Below, piece by piece: positions 5,273 through 14,071 of a stretch of 64,000 bases of DNA (position 1 is its first letter; each line of letters opens with the position of its first letter). Made by a program: the position numbers and the translations under genes. Under the pieces are notes generated by a model. The model was given only the letters and a program-made list of their open reading frames with translations, was not told the origin of the DNA and made no database searches. Location: positions 292,463 through 356,462 of the forward strand of contig WSXY01000002.1 of the NCBI GenBank assembly GCA_009773565.1, given 5' to 3'. Origin of the DNA: Actinomycetota bacterium (GTDB taxonomy: Bacteria; Actinomycetota; Coriobacteriia; Anaerosomatales; Anaerosomataceae).

Positions 5273-5278
5273 TACAAT
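5273..5278 (+). promoter_or_regulatory. Candidate -10 box upstream of hom
   Basis: TACAAT lies 53 bases before the hom start. No good -35 box precedes it at 17 bases. The stretch 5167-5272 contains no gene I can support. It has a weak inverted repeat (GTGGGC at 5226-5231 with GCCCAC at 5243-5248). A second one, GTGAC/GTCAC at 5301-5314, lies in the leader. Confidence 0.4.
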
Positions 5279-5330
5279 GGATTCACTGTGTTGCCTAATC
5301 GTGACACCGGTCACTTCTCTGGAGGATTCC

Positions 5331-6617
5331 ATGCGTACAGTTCGAGTCGGCCTCATCGGCCTTGGCACCGTCGGTAGTGGCGTTGTGGAGATTCTCAGTC
5401 GCCATCGCGCTGACTTTGTCACGCGCGCGGGCGTGGACGTTGAGATAACGCGTTTCGCCGATCGCTCCGAGGAGCGCTTTGCCGCACTGGGCCTCCCGGC
5501 AGACGCCTGCACCACCGATGCCGCCGACGTCATCGCTGACCCGGACGTCGACATCGTCATCGAGCTCATCGGCGGGACCGGCGTAGCGCGCGGTGTCGTG
5601 CTCGATGCCCTCGCGGCCGGCAAGAGCGTCGTGACCGCCAACAAAGCGCTCATGGCCAGCCACGGGCGAGAGGTCATGGACGCCGCGGATACCCACGGCG
5701 TGGATATCATGTTCGAGGCTGCGGTCGGCGGGGGCATCCCCATTATCGGCCCCCTCAAGCACTCGCTCGTCAGCAACGAGATCACGGCGGTCTACGGCAT
5801 CGTTAATGGCACAACGAACTACATGCTCACGCGCATGGCCGAGAACGGCCTCAGCTACGGTGCCGCACTCGCAGAGGCGCAGGAGCGCGGATTCGCCGAG
5901 GCAGACCCGACCGCTGATGTTGACGGCCTCGATGCTGCGGCCAAGATCGCGATTCTCTCGTCCATCGCCTTCAACTCACGCGTGACGTTCCCGCAGGTGC
6001 CCGTCGAGGGTATCCGCTCACTTGCACCCGAGGACATCGCGTACGCATTCGAGATGGGCTACGTCATCAAGCTCATGGCGATCGCGCGACGCGTCGAGGG
6101 CGGCATCGACGTCCGCGTCCACCCGACGATGATCCGCGAGGACCACCCGCTTGCGAGCGTCTCGGGCGTCTACAACGCCATCTACGTCGTTGGCGATTCG
6201 GTTGGCGAGACGATGTTCTTCGGCGAGGGTGCCGGCTCGTTGCCCGCCGCGTCGGCAGTAGTCGGCGACGTCATCGAGGTCGCCCGGCACATCCAGAGCG
6301 GCTGTCTCGCGCTTGTGGGCTGCACCTGCCACGAGGAACTCGCCGTGCGTGATGTGGGCGAACTTGTGACCGAGTACTACGTCCGGCTGCTCGTGGCCGA
6401 TGAACCCGGCGTGCTCGCGGCCGTCGCCAGCGTCTTCGGCAACCATGGCGTCTCGATCGCATCCGTCATCCAGAAGCGGACGACCGATGTCGGCGCCGAG
6501 ATCGTGTACGTGACCCATCGGGCGTCCGAGCGGTCCGTACGTGCCGCGCTCGATGAGATCGAGGCGCTCGAAGTGGTTGATTCGGTCGGCTCCATCATTC
6601 GCGTCGAAGAGCTGTGA
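5331..6617 (+). CDS. hom: Homoserine dehydrogenase
   Basis: This 428-residue enzyme reduces aspartate semialdehyde to homoserine with NAD(P)H, the branch step to threonine and methionine. The N-terminal Rossmann motif is GLIGLGTVGSGVV. The catalytic domain carries the family motif GGGIPIIGPLK and a substrate-binding acidic loop (FAEADPTADVDG). The last 75 or so residues form an ACT domain (LLVADEPGVLAAVASVFG), which usually mediates threonine feedback inhibition. The ATG at 5331 follows GGAGG at 5321-5325. An upstream in-frame ATG at 5279 lacks such a site. The stop overlaps the thrB start by four bases (GTGA), so hom-thrB is an operon. No thrC is present in the window. Confidence 0.96.
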   Translation: MRTVRVGLIGLGTVGSGVVEILSRHRADFVTRAGVDVEITRFADRSEERFAALGLPADACTTDAADVIADPDVDIVIELIGGTGVARGVVLDALAAGKSVVTANKALMASHGREVMDAADTHGVDIMFEAAVGGGIPIIGPLKHSLVSNEITAVYGIVNGTTNYMLTRMAENGLSYGAALAEAQERGFAEADPTADVDGLDAAAKIAILSSIAFNSRVTFPQVPVEGIRSLAPEDIAYAFEMGYVIKLMAIARRVEGGIDVRVHPTMIREDHPLASVSGVYNAIYVVGDSVGETMFFGEGAGSLPAASAVVGDVIEVARHIQSGCLALVGCTCHEELAVRDVGELVTEYYVRLLVADEPGVLAAVASVFGNHGVSIASVIQKRTTDVGAEIVYVTHRASERSVRAALDEIEALEVVDSVGSIIRVEEL

Positions 6618-7549
6618 CGGCTCCCGTGACTGTTCGCGTCAGGGTTCCGGCATCCTCGGCCAATCTGGGCCCGGGCTACGACGCCTTCGGACTTGCGCTC
6701 GCGCTCTATGACGATTTCGAGGCAGTGCATGCGGATGCGTGGTTCCTGGAGGTAAGCGGCGAGGGTGCCGGAGAGCTTCGTACCGACGGGGACAACGAGG
6801 TCGCCCGGGCGATTCAACGTGTGTTCGCGGAAGTCGGCTACACCGGTGCAGCGCGCATTCGCTGCGAGAATGCGATTCCGGTTGGTCGGGGACTCGGTTC
6901 CTCGGCTGCTGCTATCGTCGGTGGTCTGCTGTTGGGTAACGAGCTTGCGGACGCCGGGCTCTCCAACGAGCGACTCTTCGAGCTCGGCGCCGAGCTTGAG
7001 GGGCATCCCGACAATGTCGCGGCCGCGCTCTTCGGCGGGTTCACCGTGTGCTGGCGCGATGGCGACACGCCGCGCGTCAGGCGCATCGAGCCCGGCGGTG
7101 GGCTTGCTGCGGTCGTCGCACTCAGCGATGCCGTGCTCCCGACCTCCGAGGCTCGCCAGGCGTTGCCTGAGACCGTGCCACACGAGGATGCTGCGGCAAA
7201 CGTGGCCCGTGCGTCACTTGTCGCACTCGGCGTCGCCCTCGGCGATGAGCCGATGTTGAGCGCCGGGCTGCACGATCGCATCCACGAGCCCTATCGCGCG
7301 GCCCTCATTCCCGATATGGCGGAGATCCGTGACGTCCTCGTTTCGAGCGGCGCATGCGGAGCGGCCCTTTCGGGAGCCGGTCCTACGGTGATCGGACTCG
7401 TGAGTGGCGCCACCGACGATGACGCACTGGTCAGAGCGCGAGGAGTTGCCGATACCGCTCACGCGCGCATCGTGGCTACCTCCGGCAACCGCCGCATCAT
7501 GGCGGTTGGCGTGGAGCGCGTCGGCACGCAGATCGTGTGCGAGGGGTGA
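6614..7549 (+). CDS. thrB: Homoserine kinase
   Basis: This 311-residue GHMP-family kinase phosphorylates homoserine with ATP for threonine synthesis. The N-terminal VPASSANLGPGYDAFGLAL is the ThrB signature. The GHMP ATP-binding loop is GRGLGSSAAAIVGG (about residue 92), and the C-terminal GHMP motif is SGAGPTVIGL. It starts with GTG inside the hom stop, so it is translationally coupled to hom. The length is normal for the family. Confidence 0.95.
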   Translation: MTAPVTVRVRVPASSANLGPGYDAFGLALALYDDFEAVHADAWFLEVSGEGAGELRTDGDNEVARAIQRVFAEVGYTGAARIRCENAIPVGRGLGSSAAAIVGGLLLGNELADAGLSNERLFELGAELEGHPDNVAAALFGGFTVCWRDGDTPRVRRIEPGGGLAAVVALSDAVLPTSEARQALPETVPHEDAAANVARASLVALGVALGDEPMLSAGLHDRIHEPYRAALIPDMAEIRDVLVSSGACGAALSGAGPTVIGLVSGATDDDALVRARGVADTAHARIVATSGNRRIMAVGVERVGTQIVCEG

Positions 7550-7554
7550 GCGCC

Positions 7555-8814
7555 GTGCGCGATGGAGCCCCAGCGCACCCGCAGCGCCTCGATGCCTTCG
7601 AGTGGTCGGTCGTCGCGCTCTTCATCGCCATCGCGATGAAAGACGGCATCCTCCTCGTGCGCTTCCCCTTCCAGGTCAACCTCTTCTACTTCGGCGTTAC
7701 CGTTGCGGCAATCCTCGGCGGGCTGAAGGCGCTTCGTGCGGTGCGCGACGGTTGGCGACCGAAAGGCGTGACCGACCCGGCACTGTGGGTCTTCGGCACG
7801 CCATTTCTCGCGGGCCTCTGGTCGGTCATACAGTCTGCAGACCGCCCCACGACGTTTCTCTACAGTCTTCGGCTTATGGTGCTCTGGCTTGTTGCGGCTC
7901 TGATCATCAGCGCGTGCGCGCGCGAGGTCGTGCGTCTGCGCGCGTTGACAGCGTTCGTTATTGGTGCGGTTGGCGCCACGGCTGTCGGCTACCTGCAGCG
8001 CTTCGTGCCCGCGCTCGGACTCGGAACCGCGAACACACAGCTTCTCTTCGGCGAGTCCGTCACCCGGCCGGCAGGCTTCTATCTCGATGCGAACTTCTAC
8101 GGCATGTACTTGGCCGCGGCATGTCTCGTGGCGCTCGGACTCGCCGCTGTGGCGTCAACGAATGCGCGGCGTGCTTGGTGGCTTGTCGCCTCCGCCGTCA
8201 TGGTGCCGATCATCATCTCGACGTATTCCCGTACCGTGTGGCTGGGGCTTGGCGTCGGCATCGTCATGATGCTTGTGCTCTCGCCATGGCGGGTGCGTGT
8301 GTCGATCGTCGCCGTGATCGCGGTCTCCGTGGCCATCGGTGTGGCCTTCATGGGGTCAAGCGGGGTTTCGCAGCGCGCTGCATCCATCGCCCAACCGACG
8401 AAGCCCGGCTCCAACGCGACGCGGTACCTTATGGCCCGGGCGTCGGTCAACATGATGCTGGATCGGCCCATCTTCGGTACGGGGCTTGAGGCATATGACG
8501 ACGTCTACCCGGCGTACCGACTCCCCGGAGCCGAGACCGAAGTCTCGCATCCACACCAGCTTCCGCTGGCGTTCGTCGTCGAGACCGGCATCGCCGGACT
8601 GCTCGCCGAGTTGGCGCTTGCCGCGTTGCTGGTGTGGCGCGGTCTTGCACGGCTACGACGCAAGACGCTCTACGATGTCGGGCTCGTCGCGGCACTGGTG
8701 GCCATCGCGCTCGGGACGTTCCTGCAGTACTTCTTGTACTACGAGGTTATGTGGTTGCTCGCCGCGCTCATCTGCGTTCCGGTATCAGCGAAAGCTGTCT
8801 CGGATACGGCCTGA
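7555..8814 (+). CDS. O-antigen ligase/polymerase-like polytopic membrane protein
   Basis: This protein of about 419 residues has some ten hydrophobic segments and a large extracytoplasmic loop. The loop holds the Wzy/WaaL-type pattern, including GTGLEAYDDVYPAYR and HPHQLPLAFVVETGIAGLL. Such proteins join or polymerise lipid-linked glycans on the outer face of the membrane. I chose GTG at 7555 because AGGGG (7542-7546) sits 8 bases upstream. A GTG at 7546 overlapping the thrB stop is possible. It is unusual for such a gene to be coupled to hom-thrB. A second family member lies at 46996-48477. The acceptor is unknown. Confidence 0.8.
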   Translation: MRDGAPAHPQRLDAFEWSVVALFIAIAMKDGILLVRFPFQVNLFYFGVTVAAILGGLKALRAVRDGWRPKGVTDPALWVFGTPFLAGLWSVIQSADRPTTFLYSLRLMVLWLVAALIISACAREVVRLRALTAFVIGAVGATAVGYLQRFVPALGLGTANTQLLFGESVTRPAGFYLDANFYGMYLAAACLVALGLAAVASTNARRAWWLVASAVMVPIIISTYSRTVWLGLGVGIVMMLVLSPWRVRVSIVAVIAVSVAIGVAFMGSSGVSQRAASIAQPTKPGSNATRYLMARASVNMMLDRPIFGTGLEAYDDVYPAYRLPGAETEVSHPHQLPLAFVVETGIAGLLAELALAALLVWRGLARLRRKTLYDVGLVAALVAIALGTFLQYFLYYEVMWLLAALICVPVSAKAVSDTA

Positions 8815-8956: not shown

Positions 8957-9763
8957 GTGGGCGAAGAACGGCCGATTCTCATCGCGCAGGTATCTGACCT
9001 GCACTGCGGCTCGCAGTACCACATCCCGAGCCTGGCGACGCGCGTCGTCGATGAGATCAACGAGCTCAAGCCCGACGTGCTTGCGGTCACGGGCGATCTG
9101 ACAGACATGGGTTTTCGCCAGGAGTTCAAGGTCGCCCAGCGCCTCATCTCTCGCATGGATGTCGAGAAGGTGATGATCCTTCCCGGCAACCACGACGCAC
9201 GCAACGTCGGCGACATGCATTTCGAGGAACTCTTCGGTGCCCGGTCGACGGAACTCGCGCTGCCCGGTATTCGCATTCTCGGACTCGACTCATCGGAGCC
9301 CGACCTCGACGGCGGTCGCATCGGTCGCGAGCGCTATCGCTGGATCGAGGAGCGTTTCTCGAATCCCGATGAGTTCAAGATCGTCTGCCTGCACCACCAC
9401 CTGCTTCCTGTTCCGGGCACCGGTCGTGAGCGCAATATCGTCTTTGACGCCGGCGACCTGCTGCGCGTGCTGACCTCGAGCGGCTGCGATATGGTCTTGT
9501 GCGGCCACAAGCACGTGCCGCACGTGTGGCGGCTCGAGAACATGGTCGTCGTCAACGCCGGAACCGCGTGCTCATACCGTCTCCGGGGGAAGACCAAGGC
9601 GTCCTACAACATCATCGAGATCTATTCCGACCATGTGCGCATCGTCCTGAAGCACCCCTTCGGCGAGCCCGAAGTGGTCGCTGACTTCGATCGCGCATCG
9701 CGTCACGCATGCGTGTGGAGTCCCGGTTCCGAGCGCGACGCAAACTGCGGTGAGGGCGTATGA
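8957..9763 (+). CDS. Calcineurin-like metallophosphoesterase
   Basis: This 268-residue cytoplasmic protein has the complete set of dimetal phosphoesterase motifs: SDLHCG (residue 13 on), GDLTD, PGNHD, a histidine run LHHH, and GHKHVPHVW. It resembles class III cyclic-nucleotide phosphodiesterases. The GTG start at 8957 follows GGAGG (8948-8952). Its stop overlaps the start of the cyclic 2,3-diphosphoglycerate synthetase gene by four bases. The substrate cannot be read from the sequence. The coupling suggests it hydrolyses cyclic 2,3-diphosphoglycerate or a related phosphoglycerate, but that is inference. No secretion signal is seen. Confidence 0.88.
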   Translation: MGEERPILIAQVSDLHCGSQYHIPSLATRVVDEINELKPDVLAVTGDLTDMGFRQEFKVAQRLISRMDVEKVMILPGNHDARNVGDMHFEELFGARSTELALPGIRILGLDSSEPDLDGGRIGRERYRWIEERFSNPDEFKIVCLHHHLLPVPGTGRERNIVFDAGDLLRVLTSSGCDMVLCGHKHVPHVWRLENMVVVNAGTACSYRLRGKTKASYNIIEIYSDHVRIVLKHPFGEPEVVADFDRASRHACVWSPGSERDANCGEGV

Positions 9764-11100
9764 GCACGGCCGTTGCGCTCATCGACGGCGAGCACTACCC
9801 GCCGGTCGTCCGTAGCGCGCTCGAGGCGCTTGCCGAGGAGTACCACGTCGTGGCCGCTGCGTTTGTCGGCGGCACCGAGAAGGTCGATCCCGCGTCCGGA
9901 GATGCATACGGCGTCCCGGTTGTGCGGGCGGCCACCGCCGCAGATGCGCTTCGCATGGCGATCGAGCAGTACTGGCCGCAGGTGATCGTCGATCTTTCCG
10001 ACGAGCCGATCCTGAGCGCCGCCGACCGCTTCCGTCTCGCATCCATCGCGCTCGAGGCAGGCGTGACGTACCGCGGGGCCGACTTCATCTTCACCCCGCC
10101 GTCGGCGTCGCTCGTGCTCCAGACGCCGACGCTCGCGATCATCGGTACCGGCAAGCGCGTCGGCAAGACGGCGTTCTCCGCATACGTCGCGCGGCACCTC
10201 AAAGCAAGCGGACGCAACGTGGTCGTCCTGGCGATGGGGCGCGGCGGTCCCGCCGAGCCGGAACTCATCCGGGGCGACGAGGTTGCGCTCACGACCGAGG
10301 ACCTTCTCGCGCTCGCCGCGCTCGGCAAGCACGCCTCATCGGACAATTACGAGGATGCCGTCATGAGTCGCGTGACGACCGTCGGTTGTCGGCGCTGCGG
10401 CGGCGGTATGGCAGGGGAGACGTTCTTCAGCAACGTGGAGGAAGGCGCCCGTCTCGCGGACGGTCTCGGCAAGGATCTCGTCATGCTCGAAGGCTCGGGA
10501 GCTGCTATCCCGCCAGTCGCGGCGGACGCGACCATTCTCGTCGTCGGCGCGAGCCAGGGCGCCGGCTACATCCGCGATTACTTCGGACCGTTCAGAGTCG
10601 CGCGCGCCGACGCCGTCATCATCGCCGGGGTCGGGGATGCTTCGGCACGCGCCGAGGAGGTCGCCGAGATCCGCTCGGCCATTCACGAGTTGCGGCCTGA
10701 CGTGCCGGTCGTCGCCATCACGCTCCGACCCGCGCCGATCGAACCCGTCGAGGGCCGACGCGTGTTCTTCGCGACGACAGCTCCGGCAGCGGTGCTTCCC
10801 ACACTCGTGCGGTATCTCGAGGACACCTACAGCTGCACCGTTGTTGCAGCGAGCGCACACCTGTCGAACCGCACGCTGCTTCGCGCGGATCTCGCGGCTG
10901 CGGTGGGCACGTTCGACGTGCTTCTCACCGAGTTGAAGGCAGCCGCGATCGACGTCGTTGCAGCCGCGGGCGCGGAAGCCGGTGTGCCGACGGTTCTCTG
11001 CGACAACCTGCCGGTCACGGTGGACGGCGACGACATCGGCCCGGTCATCGACACCACCGTTGCGCTTGCTTTTGAGCGCTGCGGCGCGAGGAGCGCATGA
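9760..11100 (+). CDS. cpgS: Cyclic 2,3-diphosphoglycerate synthetase
   Basis: The 446-residue protein matches the archaeal cDPG synthetase family in length and layout. An N-terminal Rossmann-like domain of about 120 residues is followed by a P-loop domain (GTGKRVGKTAFSAYVARHL, about 131-149). Further signatures are MGRGGPAEPE, GCRRCGGGMAGETF and LEGSGAAIPPVAAD. In methanogens this enzyme uses ATP to form the cyclic anhydride of 2,3-bisphosphoglycerate, an osmolyte, thermoprotectant and phosphate store. The next gene encodes 2-phosphoglycerate kinase, which makes its substrate, so the pair forms a complete route from 2-phosphoglycerate. The start overlaps the phosphoesterase stop. The assignment is from remembered family features. 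Confidence 0.85.
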   Translation: MSTAVALIDGEHYPPVVRSALEALAEEYHVVAAAFVGGTEKVDPASGDAYGVPVVRAATAADALRMAIEQYWPQVIVDLSDEPILSAADRFRLASIALEAGVTYRGADFIFTPPSASLVLQTPTLAIIGTGKRVGKTAFSAYVARHLKASGRNVVVLAMGRGGPAEPELIRGDEVALTTEDLLALAALGKHASSDNYEDAVMSRVTTVGCRRCGGGMAGETFFSNVEEGARLADGLGKDLVMLEGSGAAIPPVAADATILVVGASQGAGYIRDYFGPFRVARADAVIIAGVGDASARAEEVAEIRSAIHELRPDVPVVAITLRPAPIEPVEGRRVFFATTAPAAVLPTLVRYLEDTYSCTVVAASAHLSNRTLLRADLAAAVGTFDVLLTELKAAAIDVVAAAGAEAGVPTVLCDNLPVTVDGDDIGPVIDTTVALAFERCGARSA

Positions 11101-12053
11101 TGCCAAACACCAACCTCCCGCCGATCCTCATCAAGGACGAGAAGCACGGCCTGCCCTACAGTAAAGGCCTCATGGCGCAGTCCTTTACGGCGACCGGCCT
11201 CTCCCCGGCGCGCGCGTATCTCGCCGCACAACGTATCCAGGACGACATGCGCGCCCGGGACCTCAAGCAAGTCTCGATGGCCGAACTTGTCGAGATGTCC
11301 GTCGCCGTGCTCGAGGAGCAGGCGGGCCCCGAGTTCGCCCGGCGTTACCGCAGCCTTCGCGAGATTGCAAACCTCGACCGTCCGCTCGTCATCCTCATCG
11401 GCGGGACGACCGGCGTGGGCAAGTCGACCATCGCCACGGAGATCGCTCACCGGCTGGGAATCACGCGTATCGTCTCGACGGATTCCATCCGGGAGGTGAT
11501 GCGTGGTATCTTTACACGAGAACTCATGCCTGCCATCTATGAGAGTTCGTTTAACGCATGGCGCGGGCTTCGGGTTCCAGTCCCTCACGGTGCCAATCCT
11601 GTTATCGTCGGATTCCGCGAACAGACCGCTGCGGTCATCACCGGCATCAGGTCGCTCATCGAGCGGGCGTCGATCGAAGGCGAAAGCCTTGTCATCGAGG
11701 GCGTTCACATGGTCCCCGGTTACATCGAGCCTTCGCAGTTCAAGAGTGCGTCCGTCGTGCAGTTGCTCGTGGCGGTGGACGACGAAGAGGCTCACCGCAG
11801 CCACTTTTACATCAGAGAGGTACAGACGGACGGAACTCGTCCGTTCGAGAAGTACCGGGCGAACTTCGGGAACATCCGGCTCCTCGGCAGGTATATCGAG
11901 GATCTTGCCGTCGAGCACGGCATCCCGATCGTCCACAGCCACCAACTCGACCGCACGGTCGCCGAGGTGCTTGAACTTGTTGTCAACGCGGCCATCCGCG
12001 GAGACGACCGGACCGCGACACCGCGGATAGACCCCGCGGGAGAAGGAGCGTAA
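11097..12053 (+). CDS. pgk2: 2-phosphoglycerate kinase
   Basis: This 318-residue kinase converts 2-phosphoglycerate to 2,3-bisphosphoglycerate. Residues 1-90 form an ATP-cone-like domain (KHGLPYSKGLMAQSFTATGL), as in archaeal 2PGK. A P-loop kinase domain follows (GGTTGVGKSTIATEIAHRLG, about 100-119), with the DSIRE substrate-site motif. The ATG ATG start overlaps the synthetase stop (ATGA), so expression is coupled. The gene ends 6 bases before tal. Together with cpgS it supplies cyclic 2,3-diphosphoglycerate. Confidence 0.88.
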   Translation: MMPNTNLPPILIKDEKHGLPYSKGLMAQSFTATGLSPARAYLAAQRIQDDMRARDLKQVSMAELVEMSVAVLEEQAGPEFARRYRSLREIANLDRPLVILIGGTTGVGKSTIATEIAHRLGITRIVSTDSIREVMRGIFTRELMPAIYESSFNAWRGLRVPVPHGANPVIVGFREQTAAVITGIRSLIERASIEGESLVIEGVHMVPGYIEPSQFKSASVVQLLVAVDDEEAHRSHFYIREVQTDGTRPFEKYRANFGNIRLLGRYIEDLAVEHGIPIVHSHQLDRTVAEVLELVVNAAIRGDDRTATPRIDPAGEGA

Positions 12054-12059
12054 GCGCAC

Positions 12060-12722
12060 ATGAAGTTCTTCCTGGACACGGCGAATATCGCCGAGATCGA
12101 AGAGGCCGCAAGCTGGGGCGTGCTTTCGGGAGTCACAACAAACCCGACCCTCTACGCCCGCGAGGGTGGCAAGCTCGCCGACTTCCACGGCCACCTCAAG
12201 CGCATCTGCGACATCGTCGATGGCCCCGTCAGCGGTGAGACCGTCGGCCTCACGCGCGATGAGATCATCCGCGAGGGCGTGGAGCTTGCAGCGCTTGCTC
12301 CCAACCTCATCGTGAAGGTCCCGACCATGCCCGAGGGCCTCGCGGCAACCAAAGCGCTCTTCGACATGGGCATCAAGGTCAACATGACCCTTTGTTTCAC
12401 GGTCCCGCAGGCAATTCTCGCGGCGCGCTCCGGCGCTGCGTACGTCTCGCCGTTCGTGGGCCGCTTCGACGACATCTCCGAGGACGGCATCGACCAGCTC
12501 GAGCAGGTCGTTATCGCACTCGATAACTATGACTTCGGGCACGATGTCGAGGTTATCGCCGCCTCGATCCGTAGCGCGAACCACGTGACGAAGGCCGCTC
12601 TCATGGGCGCCGATATCGCCACGGTGCCCTTCTCGGTACTCAAGAACCTCGTCAAGCACCCACTAACCGATCGTGGCCTGGAATCGTTCCTCGCCGACTG
12701 GGAGAAAGTGAAGAACGCATGA
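12060..12722 (+). CDS. tal: Transaldolase, TalC/FSA subfamily
   Basis: This 220-residue Schiff-base aldolase has the catalytic lysine in NLIVKVP (about residue 85), the N-terminal FLDTANIAEI and the conserved TTNPTL and VSPFVGR motifs. The length is that of the small TalC/fructose-6-phosphate aldolase group, which in Gram-positives usually acts as transaldolase in the pentose phosphate pathway. It lies 6 bases after pgk2, and its stop overlaps the rho start (ATGA). Confidence 0.93.
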   Translation: MKFFLDTANIAEIEEAASWGVLSGVTTNPTLYAREGGKLADFHGHLKRICDIVDGPVSGETVGLTRDEIIREGVELAALAPNLIVKVPTMPEGLAATKALFDMGIKVNMTLCFTVPQAILAARSGAAYVSPFVGRFDDISEDGIDQLEQVVIALDNYDFGHDVEVIAASIRSANHVTKAALMGADIATVPFSVLKNLVKHPLTDRGLESFLADWEKVKNA

Positions 12723-14071
12723 GTTCACGTCCCCGCAAGCGTGGCCGCCGTGGTGGCGCGCCGCAAGCAGAAGCCGTCGTACCCTCCATCACGCGCGAGG
12801 AGCTTGCCACCAAAACGGTGACCGAGCTCCGTCAGATGGCCGCCGAACTTGAGCTCGACGTCAAAGCGCTCAAGAAGAAGGACGAGATCATCGAGGTCGT
12901 CTACGAGGCCAAGGTCAAGGCCGAGGGCTTCATCGACATCATGGGTGTTCTCGACGTTCTGCCCGAGGGTTACGGCTTCATCCGGACCAACGGCTACCTG
13001 CCCGGTGACCGCGACGTCTACTGCTCCATGTCGCAGGTCCGGCGCTTCGAGCTCCGGCGTGGTGACCTCGTCAAGGGCCAGGTGCGCCCGCCCAAGGAGA
13101 CCGAGAAGTACTCGGCGCTCCTCAAGGTGAGCTCGATCAACGGCCTCGAGCCCGAGGCGGCCAAACAGCGCAAGAACTTCAAGGACCTCACGCCGGTCTA
13201 TCCTGATGACCGCCTGCGCCTCGAGCACGGTGCGCAGTTTATGACGACGCGGGTCATCGACCTCGTCGCCCCCATCGGCAAGGGCCAGCGTGGCCTCATC
13301 GTCTCGCCGCCGAAGGCCGGTAAGACGACCGTCCTCAAGGACATCGCGGCTGCTATCACCGCCAACAACCCCGAGGTCTACCTCATGTGCCTCCTCGTCG
13401 ACGAGCGTCCCGAGGAAGTCACCGACATGGAGCGCTCCATCCATGGCGAGGTCGTTTCCTCGACCTTCGACATGCCGTCCGAGAACCACATCGCCGTCGC
13501 GGAGCTCGTCATGGAGCGCGCCAAGCGTATGGTCGAAAGCGGCTACGACGTCGTCATCCTGCTCGACTCGATCACCCGCTTGGCCCGCGCGTACAACCTC
13601 GCGACGCCGGCATCCGGTCGTATCCTTTCCGGCGGTGTCGATTCGACGGCGCTCTACCCGCCCAAGAAGTTCTTCGGCGCGGCGCGCAACATCGAGTTCG
13701 GCGGGTCGCTCACGATTCTCGCGACCGCGCTCGTGGATACGGGCTCCAAGATGGACGAGGTCATCTTCGAGGAGTTCAAGGGCACCGGTAACATGGAGCT
13801 CCGCCTCGACCGTGGTATGGCCGATCGCCGTATCTTCCCGGCAATCGACGTCGTCACGTCCGGCACCCGTAAAGAAGAGCTCATCCTGGATCCGATGGAG
13901 GCGCCGTTCGTATGGGGCCTTCGCCGAATCCTGCACGGCGTGGACTCCTCGGAGCGCGCCCTCGACATGCTCATCAAGGGCCTCAAGCAGACTCCGTCCA
14001 ACCAGGAGTTCCTCACCAAGATGGCCAAGCGCGCCGACGACAAGCGCGTCAACAACGGTATCGAACTCTAG
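12719..14071 (+). CDS. rho: Transcription termination factor Rho
   Basis: The 450-residue hexameric helicase has the Rho N-terminal fold ([20 protein letters not shown]), the RNA-binding cold-shock-like domain ([15 protein letters not shown]), Walker A ([15 protein letters not shown], about 197), Walker B ([14 protein letters not shown]) and the Q/R-loop region. A short basic N-terminal tail is present. The long acidic insertion common in many actinobacterial Rho proteins is absent. It is translationally coupled to tal and thus appears to share the cDPG operon transcript. No terminator separates them. Confidence 0.97.

Follow-up and report, generated by a model that had tools for sequence, protein, structure and literature searches.

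A 2023 structural paper treats cyclic 2,3-diphosphoglycerate (cDPG) as restricted to hyperthermophilic methanogens (PMC10690619), although Methanobrevibacter smithii is on the list given in an earlier review (PMC1224877), and thermophilic ammonia-oxidising archaea are reported to carry genes for cDPG synthetase (cDPGS) (PMC7819960). The archaeal compound has a rapid turnover and has been discussed as storing carbon and phosphate, and hydrolysis of cDPG is known in Methanothermobacter thermautotrophicus as a membrane-bound activity (PMC1224877). For the cDPGS of Methanothermus fervidus (PDB 8ork/8oru), De Rose et al. named the residues that bind 2,3-diphosphoglycerate (2,3-DPG), ADP and Mg2+ (PMC10690619). 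We found no paper in the open-licence literature that ties cDPG synthesis to Actinobacteria; nor did our search of that literature return a published role, in line with a preliminary description of the locus studied here, which spoke of an unrecognised one. In automated databases, proteins of this kind may already bear the name cDPG synthetase.

Here we analyse a stretch of 64,000 nucleotides (the window) from a member of the actinobacterial order Anaerosomatales. It carries homologues of cDPGS and of 2-phosphoglycerate kinase (2PGK), preceded by a metallophosphoesterase gene. We consider it probable that the cDPGS and 2PGK genes make cDPG. This confidence rests on the observed gene identities, conserved catalytic residues, gene order and co-occurrence, from which we infer the activities.

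A predicted cDPG synthetase and 2-phosphoglycerate kinase

The preliminary description reported adjacent genes matching cDPGS and 2PGK, and both open reading frames are present on the forward strand. The cDPGS frame runs from 9760 to 11100 (446 amino acids, stop codon TGA at 11098–11100) and was identified by its match to PDB 8oru/8ork, and the 2PGK homologue runs from an ATG at 11097 to 12053 (318 amino acids) and was identified by NCBIfam PRK04220/PRK12337. The two frames overlap by 4 nucleotides. The span given earlier was right for both genes but left out the phosphoesterase gene directly upstream (8957–9763).

Searching the PDB sequences with phmmer matched the window cDPGS to 8oru/8ork over residues 5–433 (423 bits, E = 1.3e-125) and to 9sxb, itself deposited as a cDPGS (353 bits). 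The protein is thus homologous end to end to a biochemically proven cDPGS. Its identity to the M. fervidus enzyme is 48.6%; that enzyme is about as far from 9sxb (49.6% identity) as from the window protein. No Pfam or NCBIfam model matched the window cDPGS at E 0.001, which may partly explain why such proteins went unremarked. Using M. fervidus numbering carried over by alignment, we found that the window protein keeps all ten binding residues (E45, K46, K145, R146, K149, T150, D208, T353, E404 and K406), and these are unvarying in 115 aligned cDPGS sequences except for a single T353S. The Walker A residues K145, R146, K149 and T150 and the Mg2+ ligand D208 correspond to K132, R133, K136, T137 and D195 of the window protein and are identical in 115 of 115 sequences. 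The substrate contacts E45 (with K46) and K406, and the nucleotide contact E404, correspond to E40, K41, K393 and E391. In M. fervidus, E45 and K46 come from the opposing protomer; the window cDPGS has both. We therefore predict that it catalyses the ATP-dependent cyclisation of 2,3-DPG. Unlike its M. fervidus counterpart, the window gene is actinobacterial and sits in an operon with a kinase and a phosphoesterase, and its host lineages include mesophiles.

The adenosine contact E305 of M. fervidus is Gly292 in the window protein, Asp in 9sxb and Glu in 103 of the 115 sequences. This position lies on the nucleotide side and is not catalytic; it varies in the family and is not a defining residue. 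Nucleotide preference is possibly altered by Gly292. In the numbering used, P335 of PMC10690619 aligns to F335, and P337 close by is invariant.

The window 2PGK matched PRK12337 with 320 bits and PRK04220 with 305 bits over nearly its whole length, covering positions 6–296 of the 306 in PRK04220. These scores fall below the curated equivalog cut-offs (603 for PRK12337, 283 bits short; 343 for PRK04220, 38 bits short), and the PRK04220 cut-off was passed by none of 61 relatives, so our claim is that the protein works like a 2PGK rather than that it is a curated member. A model for mevalonate-3-phosphate 5-kinase matched more weakly (85 bits). In common with the NCBIfam 2PGKs, the window kinase has an ATP-cone-like N-terminal region (about residues 20–90) and a P-loop kinase domain (about 94–302) with the Walker A motif GGTTGVGKST; the ATP-cone family was matched weakly in 36 of 37 2PGK family members. 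Through this N-terminal region, synthesis may be gated by the adenylate level. In a fold search, an AlphaFold model (pLDDT 89.5) came closest to gluconate, UMP/CMP and adenylate kinases, with Z reaching 15.6, a mix that does not point to one substrate, and a PDB sequence search returned no solved 2PGK. The kinase is predicted to phosphorylate 2-phosphoglycerate at the 3-position. With catalytic residues intact, the two homologues support the complete two-step route in an actinobacterium that had been proposed.

A metallophosphoesterase as candidate hydrolase

The upstream gene (8957–9763, forward strand) encodes a calcineurin-like metallophosphoesterase of 268 amino acids. Its start, assigned from the sequence, is a GTG at 8957 that follows a Shine-Dalgarno GGAGG at a distance of 5 nucleotides; at the other end, the stop and the cDPGS start share 4 nucleotides (ATGA). 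The protein matched Pfam Metallophos (PF00149) with 63.6 bits against a cut-off of 21.5. In 43 aligned sequences, the metal motifs DxH, GD, GNHD and GHxH are invariant, as are four additional arginines (Arg82, Arg124, Arg157 and Arg210), which would suit a polyanionic substrate. Profile searches found Rv0805 and GpdQ (E 8e-16), and the fold of the AlphaFold model (pLDDT 85.9) matched purple acid phosphatases, GpdQ and Rv0805 in a tie at Z of about 23. The phosphoesterase shares the calcineurin-like fold and metal-ligand motifs of Rv0805 and GpdQ, which are class III metallophosphoesterases, but is only about 20–24% identical to them, and differs in its own invariant motifs (GRIGRER, PGTGRERN and LRLRG) and its strict association with cDPGS.

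From gene order and co-occurrence, we tentatively propose that this protein hydrolyses cDPG or 2,3-DPG, an assignment to which we give slightly less than an even chance. The candidate substrate follows from context, being the highly anionic phosphate compound that its partners cDPGS and 2PGK would produce. The reaction proposed here is the one described for the M. thermautotrophicus hydrolase (PMC1224877). That activity is membrane-bound, whereas the window phosphoesterase has no obvious membrane segment. Two to three copies of the phosphoesterase family occur in four genomes (G075, G343, G120 and G108) and in those of one family (f30); the extra copies are about 45–52% identical and lie away from cDPGS.

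Gene order and distribution

All genes around the module lie on the forward strand. Upstream are genes for homoserine dehydrogenase (hom, 5277–6617) and homoserine kinase (thrB, 6614–7549), both named from sequence and synteny, and for an O-antigen-ligase-like membrane protein (7537–8814, Pfam Wzy_C), which occupies this position between thrB and the phosphoesterase in some members of the order only. Downstream, 6 nucleotides past the 2PGK stop, begins fsa (12060–12722), a fructose-6-phosphate aldolase/transaldolase-like gene placed by synteny and by TIGR00875 (256.8 bits, above cut-off). Its stop overlaps by 4 nucleotides the start of rho (12719–14071), which encodes transcription termination factor Rho, followed between 14169 and 17977 by rpmE-like, thyX-like and DUF1385-like genes, a small membrane open reading frame and prfA; rho and this last group were named from sequence and synteny. 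A promoter scan gave no hit, and sites resembling terminators were no more frequent than expected by chance.

We compared neighbourhoods by tblastn in 32 other families, each represented by one or two loci. Most of these loci showed the cluster [hom, thrB]-phosphoesterase-cDPGS-2PGK-fsa-rho-rpmE-DUF1385-prfA. The phosphoesterase lies immediately upstream of cDPGS in 34 of 40 family loci and in 42 of 46 within the order, and 2PGK lies immediately downstream in 35 of 38 and 44 of 46, respectively. Three families (f20, f54 and f58) have no adjacent phosphoesterase and carry a copy elsewhere in the genome, and in f30 the 2PGK is divergent (35–38% identity) and unlinked. Two f30 loci (L107 and L135) have the phosphoesterase and cDPGS near rho, with fsa not found in the cluster. 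In one locus of family f84 (L131), cDPGS is followed by a 2PGK gene of opposite orientation, with the phosphoesterase at a distance of about 0.9 kb.

Within the order, cDPGS and 2PGK were each present in 57 of 61 genomes, and the same four lacked both. Across the phylum, we used an even sample of 296 Actinomycetota genomes, with thresholds of E < 1e-30 for a strong 2PGK match and E <= 1e-25 for the phosphoesterase. In counts not corrected for shared ancestry, cDPGS was found in 163 of 296 genomes and a strong 2PGK match in 163 (about 55% each); the two occurred together in 160, which is 160 of the 166 genomes with either. The phosphoesterase was present in 162 genomes, of which 159 also had cDPGS. 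All three genes were found in 156 genomes and none of the three in 128 (raw counts as above). Within the same class, cDPGS was absent from all listed genomes of other families. A metagenome-assembled genome titled Slackia heliotrinireducens from African mines (L043) carries a 51–54% identical cDPGS, and its Slackia label may be wrong. Among 72,556 plasmids we found no cDPGS and only distant 2PGK-like matches, in Deinococcus and Meiothermus, and viral contigs yielded no relative.

Inheritance of the module

In a tree of 51 sequences, arbitrarily rooted and with two solved cDPGS as its only non-actinobacterial references, the window cDPGS grouped with its order (SH-aLRT 100) and was nested among actinobacterial sequences, while the solved pair fell at the edge, close to several small-genome families. 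As far as a tree with those two outside references reaches, this phylogeny speaks against a recent transfer. Pairwise divergence among cDPGS, 2PGK and the phosphoesterase was correlated (r 0.72–0.79), and divergence of each of the three was correlated with that of rho (r 0.56–0.70; Mantel p 0.001). Nesting within the order and divergence that tracks rho argue for a module that is old and mainly vertically inherited in many Actinomycetota lineages. Recent archaeal transfer into the window genome, which the preliminary description had suggested, is not supported: about 55% of sampled Actinomycetota carry the genes, and the cluster is shared between families, in addition to the nesting and the rho correlation. 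Given a tree that holds only two non-actinobacterial sequences, the genes may have crossed between the domains in the distant past, to or from archaea.

Proposed role and alternative explanations

In the scheme that we propose, 2PGK would convert 2-phosphoglycerate and ATP to 2,3-DPG, and cDPGS would spend a second ATP to close an internal pyrophosphate, giving cDPG. The phosphoesterase would most likely open cDPG or dephosphorylate 2,3-DPG, so that carbon and phosphate flow back into gluconeogenesis. The three genes would then form a module for cDPG turnover, a regulated branch off gluconeogenesis. The role that we take as most likely is storage combined with that of an anionic K+ counter-solute. 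That a dynamic reserve of phosphate, carbon and energy is the main role is a suggestion that we hold with rather less than even confidence.

Instead of acting on cDPG or 2,3-DPG, the phosphoesterase might share the operon by coincidence and hydrolyse cyclic nucleotides or glycerophosphodiesters. These are the substrates of its nearest solved relatives, with Rv0805 and GpdQ closest by profile and tied with purple acid phosphatases by fold. However, its co-occurrence with cDPGS is near exact even in families in which the copy is not adjacent, and its arginines are invariant in addition to the generic metal motifs, and we regard this alternative as rather unlikely. A different substrate for the kinase and synthetase, leading to another cyclic or linear polyphosphate in place of cDPG, would be compatible with the scores below the curated 2PGK cut-offs and with a 2PGK superfamily that includes mevalonate-3-phosphate 5-kinase and plant Lpa1 (phytic acid synthesis). 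Yet all residues named as substrate contacts in M. fervidus cDPGS (E45, K145, R146 and the Mg2+ ligands) stay the same throughout the alignment, and a genome with one of the two genes nearly always has the other, which makes this explanation improbable.

It is barely credible that 2PGK exists to provide 2,3-BPG as a cofactor for dPGM, the cofactor-dependent phosphoglycerate mutase. The direct product of 2PGK is 2,3-BPG, which primes dPGM. However, the window genome encodes a 2,3-BPG-independent mutase (iPGM, 687 bits), and no dPGM scored above cut-off; supply of a mutase cofactor is thus probably not the reason why 2,3-BPG is made, and cDPGS would be left unexplained. iPGM is also reported for the two cultured members of the order that have been described, the mesophile Anaerosoma tenue and the thermophile Parvivirga hydrogeniphila, in a paper in which the word diphosphoglycerate is absent (PMC9686372). 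We rejected the cofactor hypothesis on the presence of iPGM with no dPGM over cut-off. That this lineage took over the pathway from thermophilic archaea and uses it for an osmolyte or thermoprotectant would fit the archaeal origin of the characterised enzymes (PMC10690619) and the thermophily of one of those two cultured members; the other is a mesophile growing at 14–42 °C (PMC9686372). Against it stand that mesophile, a cDPGS carrier whose record is labelled palsa, the phylum-wide spread and conserved cluster, and a synthetase that is nested inside its order and diverges in step with rho. We judge it very improbable, and the mesophile and the palsa-labelled carrier make a role confined to heat protection unlikely. 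The assembly of the window genome contains no 16S rRNA. Our best reading is that hosts of the cDPG branch live in both hot and temperate habitats.

Implications for the Actinomycetota

Taken more broadly, these data raise the possibility, which we advance tentatively and at somewhat less than even confidence, that cDPG is common in many Actinomycetota, temperate and hot, with a dedicated metallophosphoesterase hydrolase and an ATP-cone-gated kinase, and that the route known from archaea is one offshoot of a more widespread system for phosphate, carbon and energy storage. With both mesophiles and thermophiles of the order in culture, the question of cDPG can be tested at once, and the phosphoesterase gene offers a specific candidate for cDPG breakdown. 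If the pathway is intact in over half of the sampled Actinomycetota, cDPG would be a far more general metabolite, and a pathway of such generality would weaken the view of cDPG as mainly a thermoprotectant.
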